This document shows positions 34,592-40,821 of a stretch of DNA of 64,000 bases, piece after piece. The stretch comes from Methylocystis sp. MJC1 (lineage in GTDB: Bacteria > Pseudomonadota > Alphaproteobacteria > Rhizobiales > Beijerinckiaceae), in assembly GCF_026427715.1 (NCBI RefSeq), contig NZ_CP107558.1, positions 3,441,001 through 3,505,000 of the forward strand, read 5' to 3'. Position numbers and translations under genes: made by a program. Every line of letters begins with the position of its first letter. Position 1 is the first letter of the stretch. Below the pieces are notes generated by a model. It saw nothing but the letters and a program-made list of their open reading frames with translations. It searched no databases and was not told the DNA's origin.

Positions 34592-34867
34592 GTGGCAGAC
34601 ACTCCTCAGGACATTGCCAAGCTCAAGGAAGAAATCATCGAGGTGATCGCTTCCGAGGGCATGGTCGACCGCACCAAGGTGACGCCGGATGCGACCATCG
34701 AGAGTCTCGACCTCAAATCGGTCGACATCGTGATGATCCTCACGGCGCTGGAAGAGAAATTCAACGTCTATATCCCCATGGACGGCTCGCTGCAGGAAGC
34801 CAAGACGGTCGAGGCCCTCATCGGCGCGATCGCCGAGCACATCCAGAAAGAGCGCGAGACCCAGTAA
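34592..34867 (+). CDS. Atypical acyl carrier protein
   Basis: A 91-residue acidic four-helix carrier protein. Helix 2 reads DLKSVDIVMILTALEEKF, aligned with the usual DSLDTVELVMALEEEF. The phosphopantetheine serine would be Ser43, but the preceding aspartate of the DSL signature is Lys42 and the following Leu is Val. The GTG start has GGAGGG upstream. The ketosynthase ATG comes immediately after the stop codon. It is the carrier for the acyl chain assembled by this seven-gene cluster. It is clearly not the housekeeping AcpP, and the altered motif suggests recognition by its own set of partners. Confidence 0.88.
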   Translation: MADTPQDIAKLKEEIIEVIASEGMVDRTKVTPDATIESLDLKSVDIVMILTALEEKFNVYIPMDGSLQEAKTVEALIGAIAEHIQKERETQ

Positions 34868-36106
34868 ATGGCGGCTTCGCGAAGGGGAGAGGCAGGGCGC
34901 CGCGTCGTCGTCTCCGGCATGGGCGTGGTTTGCGCCTCCGGCGTCGGCGCGCGCAAGCTGTGGGAGGCAGCGCGCGACGGCGTCGCCCAGATTCGCGAGC
35001 TCAAGACCGAGCGTCCCTATGACGGGCGCATCAAGATCGCCGCGCAAGTGCCGGATTTCGACCCGGCCGCCTATATCGAGGCGAACGTCCTCCCCTTCTG
35101 CGATCCCTTCACGCAATTCGCTGTCGTCGCCGCCGACGAAGCGATGGCGCAGGCGGGCTTCGGCCGCAAGGATATCGCCGGGCCACGCACGGCCGTGATC
35201 ATGGGCTCCGGCATCGGCGGCATGACCACGATCGAGGACGGCATCTACAAATATTACGTCGAGCACACGCGGCCCGAGACATTGAGCGTGCCCAAGCTCA
35301 TCCCGAGCGCCATGCCGACGACGCTTAGCGCCCGCTTCTCGGCGCTGGGGCCGACTTTTGCGGTCGGCAGCGCCTGTTCTTCGGCAAGCCAGTCCATCGG
35401 TCTCGGCCTGCAGATGATCCGCTCCGGCATGGTGGACAAGGCGATTGTCGGCGGCGCCGAAGCCTGCGTCATCAACGCCACCATCCGCGCCTGGGAAGGC
35501 CTGCGGGTGATGACGCCGAATTTCTGCCGCCCCTTCTCCATGGGCCGCAACGGCATGTCGCTCGGCGAAGGAGCCGCCGTCTTTATTCTGGAGACGGCAG
35601 AGTCGGCGCGCGCGCGCGGGCACGAGCCGCTGTGCGAGCTTACGGGCTATGGCACGACGAGCGACGCCAAGGACCCTGTGCGGCCGGATCTCGACGGCGC
35701 CGCCAACTGCATCGCCGCGGCGCTGGAAGACGCGGGGCTGGCGCCGCGCGACATTCACTACATCAACGCGCATGGCACGGCGACGCACGCCAATGACATC
35801 ACCGAGTCGGAAGCGATCCTGCGCGTTTTCGGCGACGATTATGGGCGCGAGGTTCCCGTATCCTCCACCAAGCCCATTCACGGCCATGCGCTTGGCGCGG
35901 GCGGCGGGCTCGAGCTGGCGATCACGATCGAAGCGCTGCGCGAGCAGATCGCGCCGCCGACGATTAACTTCCTCGAATTCGACGCGCGCTGCCCGATCGA
36001 CGCCGTGCCCAATGTCGCGCGCCTGCACAAGATCGACGCGGCGATGTCAAATTCGTTCGCCTTTGGTGGAATCAACGCCGTGCTGATCGTGCGCCATGCA
36101 GCCTGA
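34868..36106 (+). CDS. Beta-ketoacyl-ACP synthase, KAS I/II-like
   Basis: A 412-residue condensing enzyme of the FabF/FabB type. The catalytic triad is complete: Cys170 in VGSACSSASQSIG, His302 in NAHGTATHAND and His338 in KPIHGHALGAGGG, with Lys335 nearby. The N-terminal VVVSGMGVVCASGVGA is also typical. It would elongate an acyl chain on the preceding ACP with malonyl units. It is a single ketosynthase with no chain-length-factor partner, unlike aryl-polyene or aromatic polyketide systems. The next gene starts inside its 3' end (11-base overlap). Confidence 0.9.
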   Translation: MAASRRGEAGRRVVVSGMGVVCASGVGARKLWEAARDGVAQIRELKTERPYDGRIKIAAQVPDFDPAAYIEANVLPFCDPFTQFAVVAADEAMAQAGFGRKDIAGPRTAVIMGSGIGGMTTIEDGIYKYYVEHTRPETLSVPKLIPSAMPTTLSARFSALGPTFAVGSACSSASQSIGLGLQMIRSGMVDKAIVGGAEACVINATIRAWEGLRVMTPNFCRPFSMGRNGMSLGEGAAVFILETAESARARGHEPLCELTGYGTTSDAKDPVRPDLDGAANCIAAALEDAGLAPRDIHYINAHGTATHANDITESEAILRVFGDDYGREVPVSSTKPIHGHALGAGGGLELAITIEALREQIAPPTINFLEFDARCPIDAVPNVARLHKIDAAMSNSFAFGGINAVLIVRHAA

Positions 36107-36491
36107 CGCTACGGCGATCCTCGGGCCGTTCCGCCTGTGCGTCGATCCCGAGCGCGCCGAGGCCTATGCGCGTGAGACCGGCGGCGACGGCAAGATCGTG
36201 CCGCTGTCCTTTCCGGCGGTCTGGCTGATGGAGCCCACGCTGTTCGCGCCGGTGCGCGAGATTTGCGCGGCGCTCGACGTGGTGCCGGTTCACGAGTCGC
36301 AGAGCTTCGCCTATGAAACGCCGCTCGCGATGGGCGCGCGCTATGATGTGAGCGTGTCGCTGCGACGCGAGGAAACGCCGTCGCGCCTGATCATCGACGC
36401 GACAATTTTTGCGCTGGACGGCGCAAAGATTGGAAAGAGCGAGACCATGCTTCGCCTCGTGTCGCGCGCAGGATTGGGAGCGGGATCATGA
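36096..36491 (+). CDS. Hot-dog fold dehydratase-like protein (HadA/FAS1-DH type)
   Basis: A 131-residue protein with a hot-dog-like pattern: a central helix (PAVWLMEPTLFAPVREICAALDV) and a strand set ending SRLIIDATIFALDGAKIGKSETMLRL. It has no MaoC catalytic Asp-His motif. The very next gene is a MaoC protein with that motif. The arrangement resembles heterodimeric (3R)-hydroxyacyl-ACP dehydratases such as mycobacterial HadAB, in which one subunit lacks the catalytic residues and shapes the acyl tunnel. This is an inference from size and context. It overlaps its neighbours by 11 bases upstream and 4 bases downstream. Confidence 0.68.
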   Translation: MQPDATAILGPFRLCVDPERAEAYARETGGDGKIVPLSFPAVWLMEPTLFAPVREICAALDVVPVHESQSFAYETPLAMGARYDVSVSLRREETPSRLIIDATIFALDGAKIGKSETMLRLVSRAGLGAGS

Positions 36492-36901
36492 GCCCTGCCA
36501 TCGCCGTCGGCGACAAATTGCCGGAAGTGATCATCGGCCCTTTCGACGCTGACGCGCTGTCGCGCTATGCGCAAATTTCCGGGGATGACAATCCGCTCCA
36601 TCTCGACGACGCCATCGCCGCCAAAATCGGCCTTGCGGCGCCGCCCGTGCACGGCATGAAGCTGCTTGCCGCCTTCGAGCCCATGCTCGCCAATTGGCGC
36701 GACGATCTCATGCTCGTCGGCCTTTCGGCGAAATTCATCCAGCCGGTGTTGCGCGGCGAAGCCGTGACGCTCTCGGGCCGCGTGCTGCGCGCGTCGGAGA
36801 ATGAAATCTTCGTCCGCCTCTTCGCCCATGGCGCCGCGCGCGCGCCGGGAATTATCGGCGAGGCGACGCTGCGCCCTGTCGACAGGACCTCGCTGATATG
36901 A
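36488..36901 (+). CDS. MaoC-like (R)-3-hydroxyacyl dehydratase
   Basis: A 137-residue single hot-dog domain. The hydratase-2 motif is present as YAQISGDDNPLHLDDAIAAKIG, giving the catalytic Asp33 and His38, followed by APPVHGMKL. It would dehydrate 3-hydroxyacyl-ACP in the elongation cycle of this cluster, probably as a complex with the preceding protein. Its ATG overlaps the stop of that gene by four bases. A family-1 repeat lies just after its stop and separates it from the reductase gene by 139 bases. Confidence 0.85.
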   Translation: MSPAIAVGDKLPEVIIGPFDADALSRYAQISGDDNPLHLDDAIAAKIGLAAPPVHGMKLLAAFEPMLANWRDDLMLVGLSAKFIQPVLRGEAVTLSGRVLRASENEIFVRLFAHGAARAPGIIGEATLRPVDRTSLI

Positions 36902-36914
36902 AGTTCTCACCTTA

Positions 36915-36999
36915 CCGTCATTGCGAGCGGAGCGAAGCAATCCAGAGCCGCGCCGGCTGCTCTGGATTGCTTCGTCGGCTTCGCCTCCTCGCAATGACG
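36915..36999. repeat. Palindromic repeat family 1, copy 3
   Basis: 85 bases from CCGTCATTGCGAG to CTCGCAATGACG with inner GAAGCAATCCAGAG / CTCTGGATTGCTTC arms. It interrupts the otherwise overlapping acyl-chain cluster between the MaoC and SDR genes. Confidence 0.9.
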
Positions 37000-37040
37000 C
37001 GCGTTGGCGTCTCAGGTGAGCATGAGATGGGAGCGGGTTT

Positions 37041-37835
37041 GTGACTCAGCGCCTCCTCATCACCGGCGCTTCCTCCGGCATCGGCCGGGCGCTCGCCATC
37101 GCCTATGCCAAGGACGGCGCGAGCCTCTACCTACTCGGTCGCGACGACGCGCGCTTGCAAGCGACGGCGGAAGCCTGTCGCGCGGCGGGCGCCTCAGAGG
37201 TCGAGACCCGCGTGGCGGACGTGCGTGACCGCGAAGCCATGGCGCGCATCGTTGAAGCCGCCCATGCCGCGCGGCCAATCGACATTCTTGTCGCCAACGC
37301 CGGGATCGCCACCGGGCTTTCTCCCGGACAAATTCTCGAGACGCCGGAAGCCGTGCGCGCCACTTTGGCGATCAATGTCGCGGGCGTCTTCAACACGGTG
37401 GAGCCCGCCATTCCGCCCATGGCCGGCCGCAAGCAGGGCCAGATCGCCATCGTCGGCTCCATGGCCGGCGTGCGGAGCCTGCCCTATTCGCCCGCCTATT
37501 GCGCCGCAAAGGCCAGCGTCCATATGTGGGCCGATTGTCTGCGCGGCCAGCTCGCGCCCCATGGCGTCAAGGTGAGCCTCGTCGTGCCGGGCTTCGTGAA
37601 GACGCCCATGTCGGCACGCACCAAATCCTGGCAGCCCAGCGCCATCTCCGACGCGCGCGCGGCCGAGATCATCAAGCGTGGTCTGGAGCGGCGCCGGCCC
37701 GTCATCGCCTTCCCGCAATATATGTATTACGCCTTGCGCTTCTTTTCCTTTCTGCCACCCTCGCTTGTCGACGGCGTGATGCGGCGTTTCCATGTCGTCG
37801 TGCCGGAATCCCCAGAGCGCGGCGAGGGCATGTGA
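37041..37835 (+). CDS. Short-chain dehydrogenase/reductase (ketoacyl or ketolipid reductase)
   Basis: A 264-residue classical SDR. It has the NAD(P) motif ITGASSGIG, the structural VANAG, and the catalytic Ser140, Tyr153 and Lys157 (YSPAYCAAK). Within the cluster it is the natural 3-ketoacyl-ACP reductase, but a C-terminal hydrophobic patch (AFPQYMYYALRFFSFLPPSLVDGVM) suggests membrane association, as in 3-ketosphinganine reductases. GTG start with GGGAGCGG upstream. Its stop codon overlaps the start of the next glycosyltransferase by three bases. Confidence 0.85.
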   Translation: MTQRLLITGASSGIGRALAIAYAKDGASLYLLGRDDARLQATAEACRAAGASEVETRVADVRDREAMARIVEAAHAARPIDILVANAGIATGLSPGQILETPEAVRATLAINVAGVFNTVEPAIPPMAGRKQGQIAIVGSMAGVRSLPYSPAYCAAKASVHMWADCLRGQLAPHGVKVSLVVPGFVKTPMSARTKSWQPSAISDARAAEIIKRGLERRRPVIAFPQYMYYALRFFSFLPPSLVDGVMRRFHVVVPESPERGEGM

Positions 37836-38983
37836 ATCTTGGCGTCTCTCTGAGCTGGATTGCCGCCGTCTATTGGGTCGCCGCCACCGCGCTCCTGGTC
37901 CTCTCGGTCGTCGCAACGATCCTGCAGCCGTATATTGTGGGTCGCCGCGCGCGCCGGCGCGACCAGCCGCCGGTCTCGATCGTCCTGCCGTTGAAGCTTC
38001 TGGAGGACGGCTTCGAGCGCACGCAGGAATCCGCCTTCGCGCAGCACTATCCGCGGTTCGACGTCACCGCGTCTGCTGTCGAAACCGACTCGCCCGCGGT
38101 GCGAAAAATCCGCGAGATATTTGGCCGCCACGCCGAAACGCCCACGCGCCTGCTCGCATCGACGGCGCGTTTTGCGGCGAGCCCCAAGGTCGACAATCTC
38201 TACGCGCCTTTCATGCAGGCAGAAAACGACGTGATCTTCATGAAGGACGCCAATGTCCTTTTGGAGCCGGACGCCCTCGCCGAGCATATGCGCCAGCTTG
38301 GCGACGATATCGGGCTGGTCTGCGCCATTCCCTATTGCGCTAGGCTCGAAAACTTCCCCGCCCATGTCGAGGCGGCGGTTATCAACGGCCCGCATGCGCG
38401 CATGCTGTTCCTCGCCTCTTGTCTGGGTCAGGGACATGGGGTGGGAAAGATCATGCTCTTCCGCCGCTCGGATTTCCTCCAGGCCGGCGGCTTCGAGGCC
38501 ATCTCCCATACGGTCGGTGAAGACAATGCGCTGGCAAAGGCCATGCGCCGAATCGGCCAACGTCCTGTTTTCTCTCATCGCCCGGTGCGGCAGGAACTCG
38601 GCGCGCGTTGCTTTTACGATGTTTATCAACGGCAATTGCGCTGGAGCGTCACCCGCCGCAACGATGAGCTGATCTCCTTCCTGCTGGAGCCGATCTGCCA
38701 AGCTTTTCCGTCACTTGTAGCAGGATGGCTGGCGGCGCCGCTTCTCGGCGTGGCGCCGCTCTGGGGCGTCGCCGGGACCGCGGCGCTCTGGTTCACGCTG
38801 GAAACATTGCTTTCCTTGGCGAAAGGATGGCAATTATCCTGGACGGCGCCCGCGGTTTTCATTGTCCGCGAGGCGGTCATGCTCGCAGTCTGGGTGAACG
38901 CCTGGATGACCAATCGGGTGGTCTGGGCCAACGGCAAAGTCCACGCGCGCACGGCGGCGCGGCCCGCGCCTGAAGAAGGATAA
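37832..38983 (+). CDS. Ceramide-glucosyltransferase-like enzyme (GT21/HpnI-like)
   Basis: A 383-residue membrane glycosyltransferase. One N-terminal helix (WIAAVYWVAATALLVLSVVA) is followed by a GT-A domain with the D...DxN...GED...(Q/R)xxRW pattern of ceramide glucosyltransferases: Asp139-Ala-Asn141, Gly229-Glu230-Asp231, and Arg267-x-x-Arg270-Trp271. Two or more C-terminal helices follow. Relatives transfer a sugar to ceramide or, as HpnI, to bacteriohopanetetrol. No hopanoid genes are nearby, so a product of the linked acyl cluster is the likelier acceptor. GTG start overlapping the SDR stop. Confidence 0.83.
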   Translation: MNLGVSLSWIAAVYWVAATALLVLSVVATILQPYIVGRRARRRDQPPVSIVLPLKLLEDGFERTQESAFAQHYPRFDVTASAVETDSPAVRKIREIFGRHAETPTRLLASTARFAASPKVDNLYAPFMQAENDVIFMKDANVLLEPDALAEHMRQLGDDIGLVCAIPYCARLENFPAHVEAAVINGPHARMLFLASCLGQGHGVGKIMLFRRSDFLQAGGFEAISHTVGEDNALAKAMRRIGQRPVFSHRPVRQELGARCFYDVYQRQLRWSVTRRNDELISFLLEPICQAFPSLVAGWLAAPLLGVAPLWGVAGTAALWFTLETLLSLAKGWQLSWTAPAVFIVREAVMLAVWVNAWMTNRVVWANGKVHARTAARPAPEEG

Positions 38984-38987
38984 CCCT

Positions 38988-40292
38988 TTGCTTATCGGAC
39001 TCGTCACCTTCCTCGTCGACGCCGTCGCCTATCTCTGCGCCGCCATCCTGGTCGCCATCGGGCTCGGCTATCTCGTCGTTATCGGGCGTTTCCTCTACGA
39101 CTGGCTACGCGGCGCGCGCGATCCGGAAGCGCCGGCGACGCCGGACGCCGATCTGCCGCATGTGCTGCTGCAAATCCCGGTCTTCAACGAGCCCCTGGTC
39201 ACCGAGCAATCGCTGCGCTGCGTCGCCCAGCTCGACTGGCCGAAGGACAAGCTTCGCATTCAGCTTCTCGACGACTCGACCGACGAAACGACCGCGCGCG
39301 CCGAACGCGTGGCGCAGGAGCTGCGCGCCCAGGGCGCGATCATCGACCATGTGCGCCGCACGGATCGCTCGGGCTTCAAGGCCGGCGCCTGCGCCCATGG
39401 CCTCACGCTGACGAACGAGCCCTTCATCGCCATGCTGGACGCCGATTTTCGGCCGCCGGCAAATTGGCTCAAGCGCACCGTGCCGTTGTTTCTGACGGAC
39501 GATCGCGCCGGCTTCGTGCAGTCGCGCTGCGAGTTCCAGAACTTTGAGACGAATTGGCTCACCCGCGCCCAGGGGCTCGTGCAGGATGGCCATTACATGG
39601 TCGAGCAGCGCTCGCGCGCCTTGGCCGGCTGGCTCTTCCAGTTCAACGGCACGGGCGGCATCTGGCGCCGCGCCACGGTCGAAGACGCCGGCGGCTGGTC
39701 GGATTACTCGCTTTGCGAAGACCTCGACCTCACAGTTCGCGCGGAACTGCGCGGCTGGCATGGGCTCTTTGTCTCCGAGCCGCCGATCCCCGGCCAGGTG
39801 CCGGACGGCATCCGCGATTTCCGCCGCCAGCAGCGGCGCTGGTCCAATGGCTTCGTGCAAGTCGCGCAGAAGACGATCGTGCCGATCTGGGAAGCCCCCT
39901 GGCCGCTCGTCAAGCGCGTGATGGCCATTTCGCTGATCGCCCATCAGGTCTTCTTTCCGGCGGCGGCGATCGGCGTGATTTCATTCGTGTTCGGCGCGCT
40001 GCTGCATGGATCGCTAGCGCCCTATTCCGGGCTGCTGGAGCTGATCCTGGTCATGACGGCAATGGTGGCGCTCGGCATCACCATGCCCCCCTACCTCGCC
40101 TTGAAGCGAGGCACGGTCGTGGATTTCGCCAAGACAGTCGGCTCGCTCCCGCCGCTGTTCATCTATCTGGCCTTCGCCAATGGCGCGAAGATCCTGCAGA
40201 CGCTGCGCGGCCGCAAATCGACCTTCAAACGCACGCCCAAGCAGGAGACCGCAGCGGTCGAAACCGCGCCGGCGGAGGCGGAGGCTGAATAA
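38988..40292 (+). CDS. Membrane glycosyltransferase family 2 (BcsA/CslA-like)
   Basis: A 434-residue inner-membrane GT2 enzyme. An N-terminal helix pair precedes the cytoplasmic GT-A domain with LLDDSTDETT, Asp151-Ala-Asp153 (LDADFRP), the acceptor-site CEDLDL (Glu244-Asp245) and QQRRW (Gln281...Arg284-Trp285). Three or four C-terminal helices and a Glu/Ala tail follow. The QxxRW motif is typical of processive cellulose/mannan synthase-like enzymes, but single-sugar transferases on lipids also have it. The TTG start has AAGGA at the right distance. It is the last gene of the seven-gene cluster and would add a second sugar or a short glycan. Confidence 0.85.
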   Translation: MLIGLVTFLVDAVAYLCAAILVAIGLGYLVVIGRFLYDWLRGARDPEAPATPDADLPHVLLQIPVFNEPLVTEQSLRCVAQLDWPKDKLRIQLLDDSTDETTARAERVAQELRAQGAIIDHVRRTDRSGFKAGACAHGLTLTNEPFIAMLDADFRPPANWLKRTVPLFLTDDRAGFVQSRCEFQNFETNWLTRAQGLVQDGHYMVEQRSRALAGWLFQFNGTGGIWRRATVEDAGGWSDYSLCEDLDLTVRAELRGWHGLFVSEPPIPGQVPDGIRDFRRQQRRWSNGFVQVAQKTIVPIWEAPWPLVKRVMAISLIAHQVFFPAAAIGVISFVFGALLHGSLAPYSGLLELILVMTAMVALGITMPPYLALKRGTVVDFAKTVGSLPPLFIYLAFANGAKILQTLRGRKSTFKRTPKQETAAVETAPAEAEAE

Positions 40293-40377: not shown

Positions 40378-40821
40378 ATGACCGAGAATAAGCGTTCCTA
40401 TCATATGGTCCCGGGCTCTCTTGGACTCAGGCGCGATTTCCGCATCACGGTCGGATTGCGAGAAGGCTGGGATCCGGAGGGGCGGGTCTATGATGTCTCC
40501 GAAGCCGTCCGCACAGCGCGCAGTTGGATGCGGCGGCGCGTCGAGGCGGGCAAGCCCGCGCTCTCTGGCATGTTCACCCGCGCCGAGGTGACCTACGCCT
40601 GGCCGAAAGAAGACGGCACCGCCGGCTCCGATCGAGAGCCCGTCGCGATCTTCACCGGCGAAGCTGTGCACGCCTATCTCGGTCACCTGCCCGATGACGA
40701 CATAGAAGCCATGCTCAACGAGCTCGCCACCGAACTTGGACACGCCCTCGGGCAGGAACGCATTTACGTCGCCTTCTGCAGCCGAACATGGATTTTGAGC
40801 TGCGAGCCCGACGCCGCTTGA
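40378..40821 (+). CDS. Hypothetical soluble protein
   Basis: A 147-residue protein beginning MTENKRSYHMVPGSLGLRRDFRITVGLREGWDPEG. It has no signal peptide or membrane helix. Later segments (MFTRAEVTYAWPKEDG, EPVAIFTGEAVHAYL, IEAMLNELATELGHALGQERIYVAF) have the mixed strand-helix pattern of a compact domain, and the end GQERIYVAFCSRTWIL looks like a buried strand. I do not recognise the family. It lies 85 bases after the glycosyltransferase cluster on the same strand but does not overlap it. Confidence 0.65.
   Translation: MTENKRSYHMVPGSLGLRRDFRITVGLREGWDPEGRVYDVSEAVRTARSWMRRRVEAGKPALSGMFTRAEVTYAWPKEDGTAGSDREPVAIFTGEAVHAYLGHLPDDDIEAMLNELATELGHALGQERIYVAFCSRTWILSCEPDAA

Follow-up and report, generated by a model that had tools for sequence, protein, structure and literature searches.

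Organization of a seven-gene acyl-chain and glycosyltransferase cluster

The 64,000-nucleotide stretch of the Methylocystis sp. MJC1 genome (4.54 Mb) analysed here, hereafter the window (contig NZ_CP107558.1, C1:3441001-3505000), carries seven consecutive plus-strand genes encoding an acyl carrier protein (ACP), a ketosynthase (KS), two hot-dog proteins (HD1 and HD2), a short-chain dehydrogenase (SDR) and two glycosyltransferases (GT21 and GT2), as listed in Table 1. An initial annotation of the window had described this anatomy and proposed an independent glycolipid pathway; the open reading frames (ORFs), the Pfam matches, the sequence motifs and a structural model of HD1 agree with its gene-by-gene description, and the ORFs together with a Pfam/NCBIfam profile search show all seven genes to be intact. 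The genes had been called mostly overlapping, which is accurate if abutting neighbours are included (spacings from the first gene to the seventh of 0, -11, -4, +139, -7 and +4 nt), but not for HD2 and SDR, whose 139-nt gap is the exception in the layout. The GTG at 37832 is our choice of start for GT21; the spacing of -7 nt is counted from the alternative start at 37829 and becomes -4 nt from 37832. A promoter and terminator scan gave matches at chance level (1 found against 0.8 expected, and 5 found against 5.1 expected).

Table 1. Genes of the cluster, with positions in the window and the basis of each assignment.
Gene product	Position	Strand	Basis
Acyl carrier protein (ACP)	34592..34867	+	91 aa; Pfam PP-binding, 29.8 bits over cut-off; outside AcpR group in small tree
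FabF-like ketosynthase (KS)	34868..36106	+	412 aa; Pfam ketoacyl-synt N and C; Cys/His/His kept; module KS clade 100/99
HD1, hot-dog protein without catalytic motif, HadA/HadC-like	36096..36491	+	Predicted model; fold matches HadAB/HadBC
HD2, MaoC-type dehydratase, HadB-like	36488..36901	+	Pfam MaoC_dehydratas 49.2 bits; SGDDNPLH motif; PDB matches including HadB
SDR, probable sphingoid-base 3-keto reductase	37041..37835	+	Pfam adh_short; SDR tree
GT21, ceramide-glucosyltransferase-like	37832..38983	+	Pfam Glyco_transf_21 144.5 bits; PDB ceramide glucosyltransferase 1.3e-33
GT2, BcsA-like membrane glycosyltransferase	38988..40292	+	Pfam Glyco_trans_2_3; PDB cellulose synthase 9.1e-19; DxD, ED and RQQRRW motifs

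The identical seven-gene order was found in 19 of the 21 related loci that were fetched, with a methylmalonyl-CoA mutase beta gene upstream, and the remaining two (L043 and L052; handles with L, G and f denote loci, genomes and families) end at contig borders, where the order is incomplete. The annotated coupling of a dedicated acyl module to lipid-type glycosyltransferases holds, and it is conserved beyond close relatives. The window GT21 is 94% identical to the GT21 of Methylocystis iwaonis and to that of Methylocystis sp. Sn-Cys (L036).

Ceramide genes in the same genome

Downstream of the cluster, beginning about 74 kb past its end, the same genome carries a run of genes (C1:3555023-3559450, L092) encoding a serine palmitoyltransferase (SPT)-like enzyme, CerS, a desaturase with the PF08557 domain and a fatty acid hydroxylase with the PF04116 domain. 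The second of these, a 380-aa protein, shares 37% identity across 99% of its length (1.3e-82) with YghO of Escherichia coli BL21(DE3), which PMC9386255 describes as the acyltransferase of ceramide synthesis in E. coli BL21, and judged by this homology it is the bacterial ceramide synthase CerS. The desaturase carries the sphingolipid Delta4-desaturase domain PF08557 at 37.1 bits against a cut-off of 23, and a search of PDB gave no match for it. The SPT-like enzyme adjoins CerS and finds its best PDB match in SPT (1.7e-62), the nearest solved structures being 3a2b and 8guh; as discussed below, its assignment is the weakest of the calls in this run. It is 34% identical to the SPT of E. coli BL21, compared with 56% for the SPT of locus L139 and 43% for that of family f20. 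The SPT of an alphaproteobacterial-class genome outside the order, G627, is 49% identical to the Methylocystis enzyme. The earlier statement that SPT is absent therefore holds for the window but not for the genome, and the apparent absence arose because the view was limited to the window.

Co-occurrence of the acyl module with CerS

Searches across genomes of the same order detected HD1 in 23 of 297 genomes and CerS in 70 of 295, the latter including 22 of the 23 HD1 genomes (Fisher 1.9e-14 on the 295, computed from plain genome counts in which kinship is ignored). Among the listed genomes of the window's own family, the three with HD1 have CerS and the nine without HD1 lack it. The surroundings of HD1 matches were fetched for 18 of the 23 genomes, along with three stretches of the host genome; genes in fetched stretches were called with a home-made longest-ORF and codon-usage heuristic, which missed genes that tblastn found, such as the GT21 of the window. 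Around the fetched matches the ACP-KS-HD1-HD2 block, hereafter the module, recurs, mostly near an alpha-oxoamine synthase and CerS. In 9 of 27 module genomes, drawn from families f50, f49, f23 and f22, the gene immediately upstream of ACP-KS on the same strand is CerS; elsewhere among the 27 CerS lies within 7 kb on the opposite strand (12 genomes), far away (two, the window genome and G238) or on another contig (four). The desaturase domain PF08557 goes with the module as well. Of 71 genomes searched (the 70 with CerS, and G173), 14 have it: G173 and 13 of the 28 that combine CerS with the module, but none of the 42 that have CerS and no module. It was found in none of 14 control genomes.

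Acyl supply by AasR or, as proposed, by the module

In the proteobacterial ceramide pathway, as set out for Caulobacter and E. coli BL21 in PMC9386255, the ligase AasR loads a dedicated carrier, AcpR, and serves SPT, and every spt of alpha-, beta- and gammaproteobacteria is reported there to co-occur with an acyl ligase. AasR was identified with the model NF006624 at its cut-off of 600 bits, which among the 14 control genomes is passed only by Caulobacter and E. coli. In L139 and L128 a ligase is followed by an extended SDR, an ACP and SPT; these two ligases reach 762 and 755 bits, and the L139 enzyme shares 44% identity with AasR of E. coli BL21. A KS with ACP and HD2 neighbours was taken as the module, in 27 cases from the fetched loci and in addition in G246, whose KS is in two pieces. 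Of 40 KS matches, 30 were checked for neighbours, the other ten being the second KS of the Methylocystis genome (G000), that of G238 and eight weaker matches (1e-104 to 1e-84).

By these measures, 28 of the 70 CerS genomes carry the module and 38 carry an AasR over the cut-off, with AasR in 6 of the 28 module genomes versus 32 of the 42 without the module (Fisher 7.9e-06, again on plain genome counts that disregard kinship). The module occurs without AasR in families f1 (3/3), f20 (12/12), f49 (2/2), f22 (1/1) and f50 (4/5). Of the two CerS genes in G186, one lies close to AasR and the other next to the module. Outside the order, 46 of the 50 CerS genomes of the class have AasR; it was not found in G322, G331, G479 and G627, of which G479 alone has a KS match, beside a weak CerS match (4e-9). 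KS matches occur in seven of these 50 genomes, none of them inside the module KS clade.

Assignment of the individual proteins

HD1 matched no Pfam and no NCBIfam model, and the sources name it hypothetical or, once, MaoC family. Its predicted structure is a hot-dog fold (mean pLDDT 80); among solved structures, HadBC and HadAB of Mycobacterium tuberculosis match it best, with a TM score of about 0.6 and 14-18% identity, and the SGDDNPLH motif is found only in HD2, in line with the annotated pair of a non-catalytic and a catalytic protein. HD2 scores 40.6 bits with the HadB equivalog model, below its cut-off of 203. HD1 and HD2 would together act as one enzyme.

In the KS tree the module KS form a single clade, separate from the FabF-like KS of the host genome (L001). 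Methylocystis has a second, lone KS (L057 9328-10545; G000:C1:405339-406532) that is 69% identical to the window KS and falls inside the same clade, with a gene that reads by eye as MurA-like on its 3' side, and G238 likewise has a second KS at 69% identity. The window ACP groups with 16 further ACPs from module loci (85/63) and lies outside the five AcpR sequences (95/99), including that of E. coli BL21, which makes it tentatively not an AcpR-type carrier, the tree being small with long branches; the AcpR entries were chosen by position, and without the E. coli sequence the supports are 76/55 and 96/94.

The SDR had been counted as part of a full condensation, reduction and dehydration set. 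The KS and the hot-dog pair of that set stand, but the SDR probably lies outside the acyl-chain cycle: in a tree of 13 SDRs it clusters (98/98) with the module SDRs and with two SDRs from genomes without the module, one beside SPT and CerS (G627) and one beside CerS (G453), and not with FabG. Because of this grouping, the SDR is probably the 3-keto reductase of the sphingoid base, and a role as acyl-chain reductase is less likely; the acyl cycle would therefore rely on the housekeeping FabG and enoyl reductase. The f20 loci have no such SDR after HD2 and carry a different one beside SPT. No clear copy of the extended SDR CerR was found in the host genome (best match 2.5e-23); clear CerR genes, at 1.7e-36 or better, occur in 28 of the 71 genomes and are missing also from 11 of the 38 AasR genomes.

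GT21 exceeds its Pfam cut-off of 21.7 bits many times over, and ceramide glucosyltransferase is its only PDB match, with 331 of 384 residues aligned and catalytic-type motifs. In f50, which includes Labrys, GT21 follows the SDR in four of the five genomes, G050 being the one without it. GT2 would add a second sugar. Adjoining the module in G255 and in f50 is an ABC-type pair, by-eye readings of a permease-like and an ATP-binding protein (L061 12037-13582, with homologues in L064, L068, L070, L072 and L074), which is possibly an exporter of the glycolipid. An aryl polyene cluster was considered and rejected, as in the initial annotation, since a single KS and no ammonia lyase occur among the seven genes. 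Just downstream of GT2, a 147-aa ORF at window positions 40378-40821 is present in two of the 21 related loci (L036 and L037) and matched no Pfam or NCBIfam model.

A proposed glycosylceramide pathway

We place at about 0.78 the probability that the cluster provides the acyl chain and the glycosylation for a glycosylceramide pathway whose ceramide half lies about 74 kb downstream. The acceptor of the glycosyltransferases is most likely ceramide, because the genome carries the ceramide genes and because CerS accompanies HD1 in all but one of the HD1 genomes. The glycolipid pathway first proposed thus keeps its acyl module and its glycosyltransferases, but not the view that it has no link to sphingolipids. 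In the proposed scheme, the KS would elongate a primer on the dedicated ACP, the housekeeping FabG would reduce the product and the HD1-HD2 pair would dehydrate it; the cycle may end there or be completed by a housekeeping enoyl reductase. The resulting acyl-ACP would be used by SPT, by CerS or by both, in place of AasR-loaded AcpR; the loss of AasR points to SPT as the recipient and gene adjacency points to CerS. The SDR would then reduce the sphingoid base at its 3-keto group, the ceramide would be modified by the desaturase and the hydroxylase, and of the sugars GT21 would attach the first and GT2 another.

The new part of this proposal is the acyl supply, the ceramide genes being already known. 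A match to a characterised pathway had been named at the outset as something that would refute the initial reading, and this is half the case: Caulobacter and E. coli BL21 have characterised ceramide genes (PMC9386255), but for a ceramide acyl supply by KS and a HadAB-like pair we found no published description in a search that covered mostly titles and abstract openings, with subscription literature largely outside it. If the proposal is correct, the module would be a second proteobacterial route for providing ceramides with their acyl chain, in which a small type II synthase builds that chain on a dedicated carrier, and an exception to the co-occurrence rule for spt and acyl ligases in PMC9386255. 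It would also give a function to HD1, and glycosylceramides whose head group and backbone resemble those of eukaryotes would be expected in methanotrophs and in Labrys.

Several observations weigh against this proposal. Every reaction in it is inferred, what is observed being the genes, their order, the co-occurrence with CerS and the depletion of AasR. The cluster and the ceramide run lie far apart in Methylocystis, and G173 (L076) is the sole HD1 genome without a CerS match, having ACP-KS-HD1-HD2 and a PF08557 match. CerS itself has no Pfam, NCBIfam or PDB match. The SPT-like enzyme falls below all NCBIfam cut-offs for SPT (293, 287 and 210 bits versus 500, 640 and 670) and below that for bioF (339 versus 426), and against the SPT of E. 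coli BL21 it scores 180 bits, close to the 160 and 152 of two other oxoamine synthases of the host. The counts above ignore phylogeny, and twelve of the 22 module genomes without AasR belong to one genus-level group (f20 g24); six genomes carry both module and AasR (G037, G050, G068, G114, G186 and G208).

The alternation of AasR and module is in any case a rule with exceptions. Ten of the 70 CerS genomes of the order have neither AasR nor a confirmed module (G026, G057, G062, G072, G078, G089, G205, G257, G274 and G276); among them, the CerS matches of G257, G274 and G276 are weak (1e-30 to 1e-28), a fragment of AasR (221 bits) is present in G078, only KS and ACP occur in G205, and G026, G057, G062, G078 and G089 are less than 90% complete. 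Outside the order, G322, G331 and G627 (L125) have CerS with neither AasR nor a module KS, and a third route of acyl supply may exist in such genomes.

Alternative explanations

The strongest alternative, which we regard as possible if clearly the less favoured, is that the module feeds CerS only, providing on the ACP an unusual N-acyl chain that is long, 3-hydroxy or unsaturated, with SPT taking acyl-CoA or acyl-AcpP. It is CerS, not SPT, that stands directly upstream of ACP-KS in the nine genomes described above, and the Methylocystis SPT-like enzyme, nearest to 3a2b and 8guh and sharing 34% identity with E. coli BL21 SPT where that of L139 shares 56%, is unlike the type found beside AasR. 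However, 22 of the 28 module genomes lack AasR, so that SPT there needs another supplier, and the SPT of f20, at 43%, is of the usual type.

A variant of the glycosylceramide pathway concerns the double bond. Because the module has no enoyl reductase, a trans-2-enoyl-ACP might be handed to SPT, placing a 4,5-trans double bond directly in the sphingoid base, at least in f50 genomes such as Labrys; sphingosine-type bases would then arise by assembly and not through a desaturase. We consider this rather unlikely. None of the five f50 genomes, which have the module, gave a PF08557 match, and this leaves room for the idea there; the desaturase of Methylocystis speaks against it in that organism, where the enzyme would be redundant or act elsewhere.

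That the cluster makes an independent glycolipid with an acceptor other than ceramide, as first proposed, now appears unlikely. At 74 kb from the ceramide genes the Methylocystis cluster could act alone, and G173 has the module without a CerS match, but the presence of CerS in the other 22 HD1 genomes, its absence from the nine listed same-family genomes without HD1 and its adjacency to ACP-KS in four families all argue otherwise.

We give the same low weight to the possibility that the ACP does receive its chain from a ligase, with the module serving only to lengthen or modify it. The best candidate for an AasR in the host genome is a PP-binding/AMP-ligase/acyltransferase fusion (C1:3398365-3401250; L230 8366-11251), which was rejected as AasR and retained as the basis of this alternative; its ligase part shares 34% identity with AasR of E. 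coli BL21 (285 bits), it gives the best NF006624 match of the genome (413 bits), and G238 has a similar ligase (424 bits). However, the fusion stays under the 600-bit cut-off and has its own PP-binding and acyltransferase domains, and in G255, of the same family, no match exceeds 98 bits, the best match in f20 reaching 131 bits.

Lastly, it is very improbable that GT21 is an HpnI-type glycosyltransferase and the cluster decorates hopanoids: HpnI is its best NCBIfam model, but the score of 158.7 bits is about half of the cut-off of 310, another host GT21 (L058) scores slightly higher (170.5 bits), the only PDB match is ceramide glucosyltransferase, and the scanned neighbours are not hopanoid genes, the genome itself not having been searched for these, and on the unreached cut-off hopanoid glycosylation was rejected.

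Comparison with known systems

The closest relative of the proposed pathway is the ceramide pathway of Caulobacter and E. coli, which (PMC9386255, PMC11324152) shares with it a CerS homologue, an SPT-like oxoamine synthase and a dedicated ACP. In Methylocystis, however, no AasR exceeds the cut-off, the ACP falls outside the AcpR group, another SDR stands in for CerR, a KS and a HadAB-like pair replace the ligase, and GT21 and the PF08557 desaturase are added. The sphingolipids of Pseudomonas fluorescens derived from a polyketide synthase (SgaAB; PMC12134224) resemble it in that an acyl chain built on a carrier is passed to an SPT-type enzyme; there the synthase is an iterative type I enzyme, whereas the Methylocystis cluster encodes separate type II proteins.

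The HadAB/HadBC dehydratases of the mycobacterial type II fatty acid synthase provide a parallel for the hot-dog pair, since a motif-less and a motif-bearing protein are encoded side by side in both, but the window pair is tied to ceramide genes and HD2 fails the HadB cut-off. Rhizobial NodF-NodE is a dedicated ACP with a dedicated FabF-like KS and no enoyl reductase of its own; the likeness to the window ACP and KS lies in this arrangement, and the product and the partners differ. Finally, the eukaryotic glucosylceramide synthase (PDB 26qf and 26qs) shares with the window enzyme the Pfam family GT21 and the catalytic-type motifs, whereas the window GT21 is bacterial and lies in an operon with fatty-acid genes, and its donor and acceptor are predicted.

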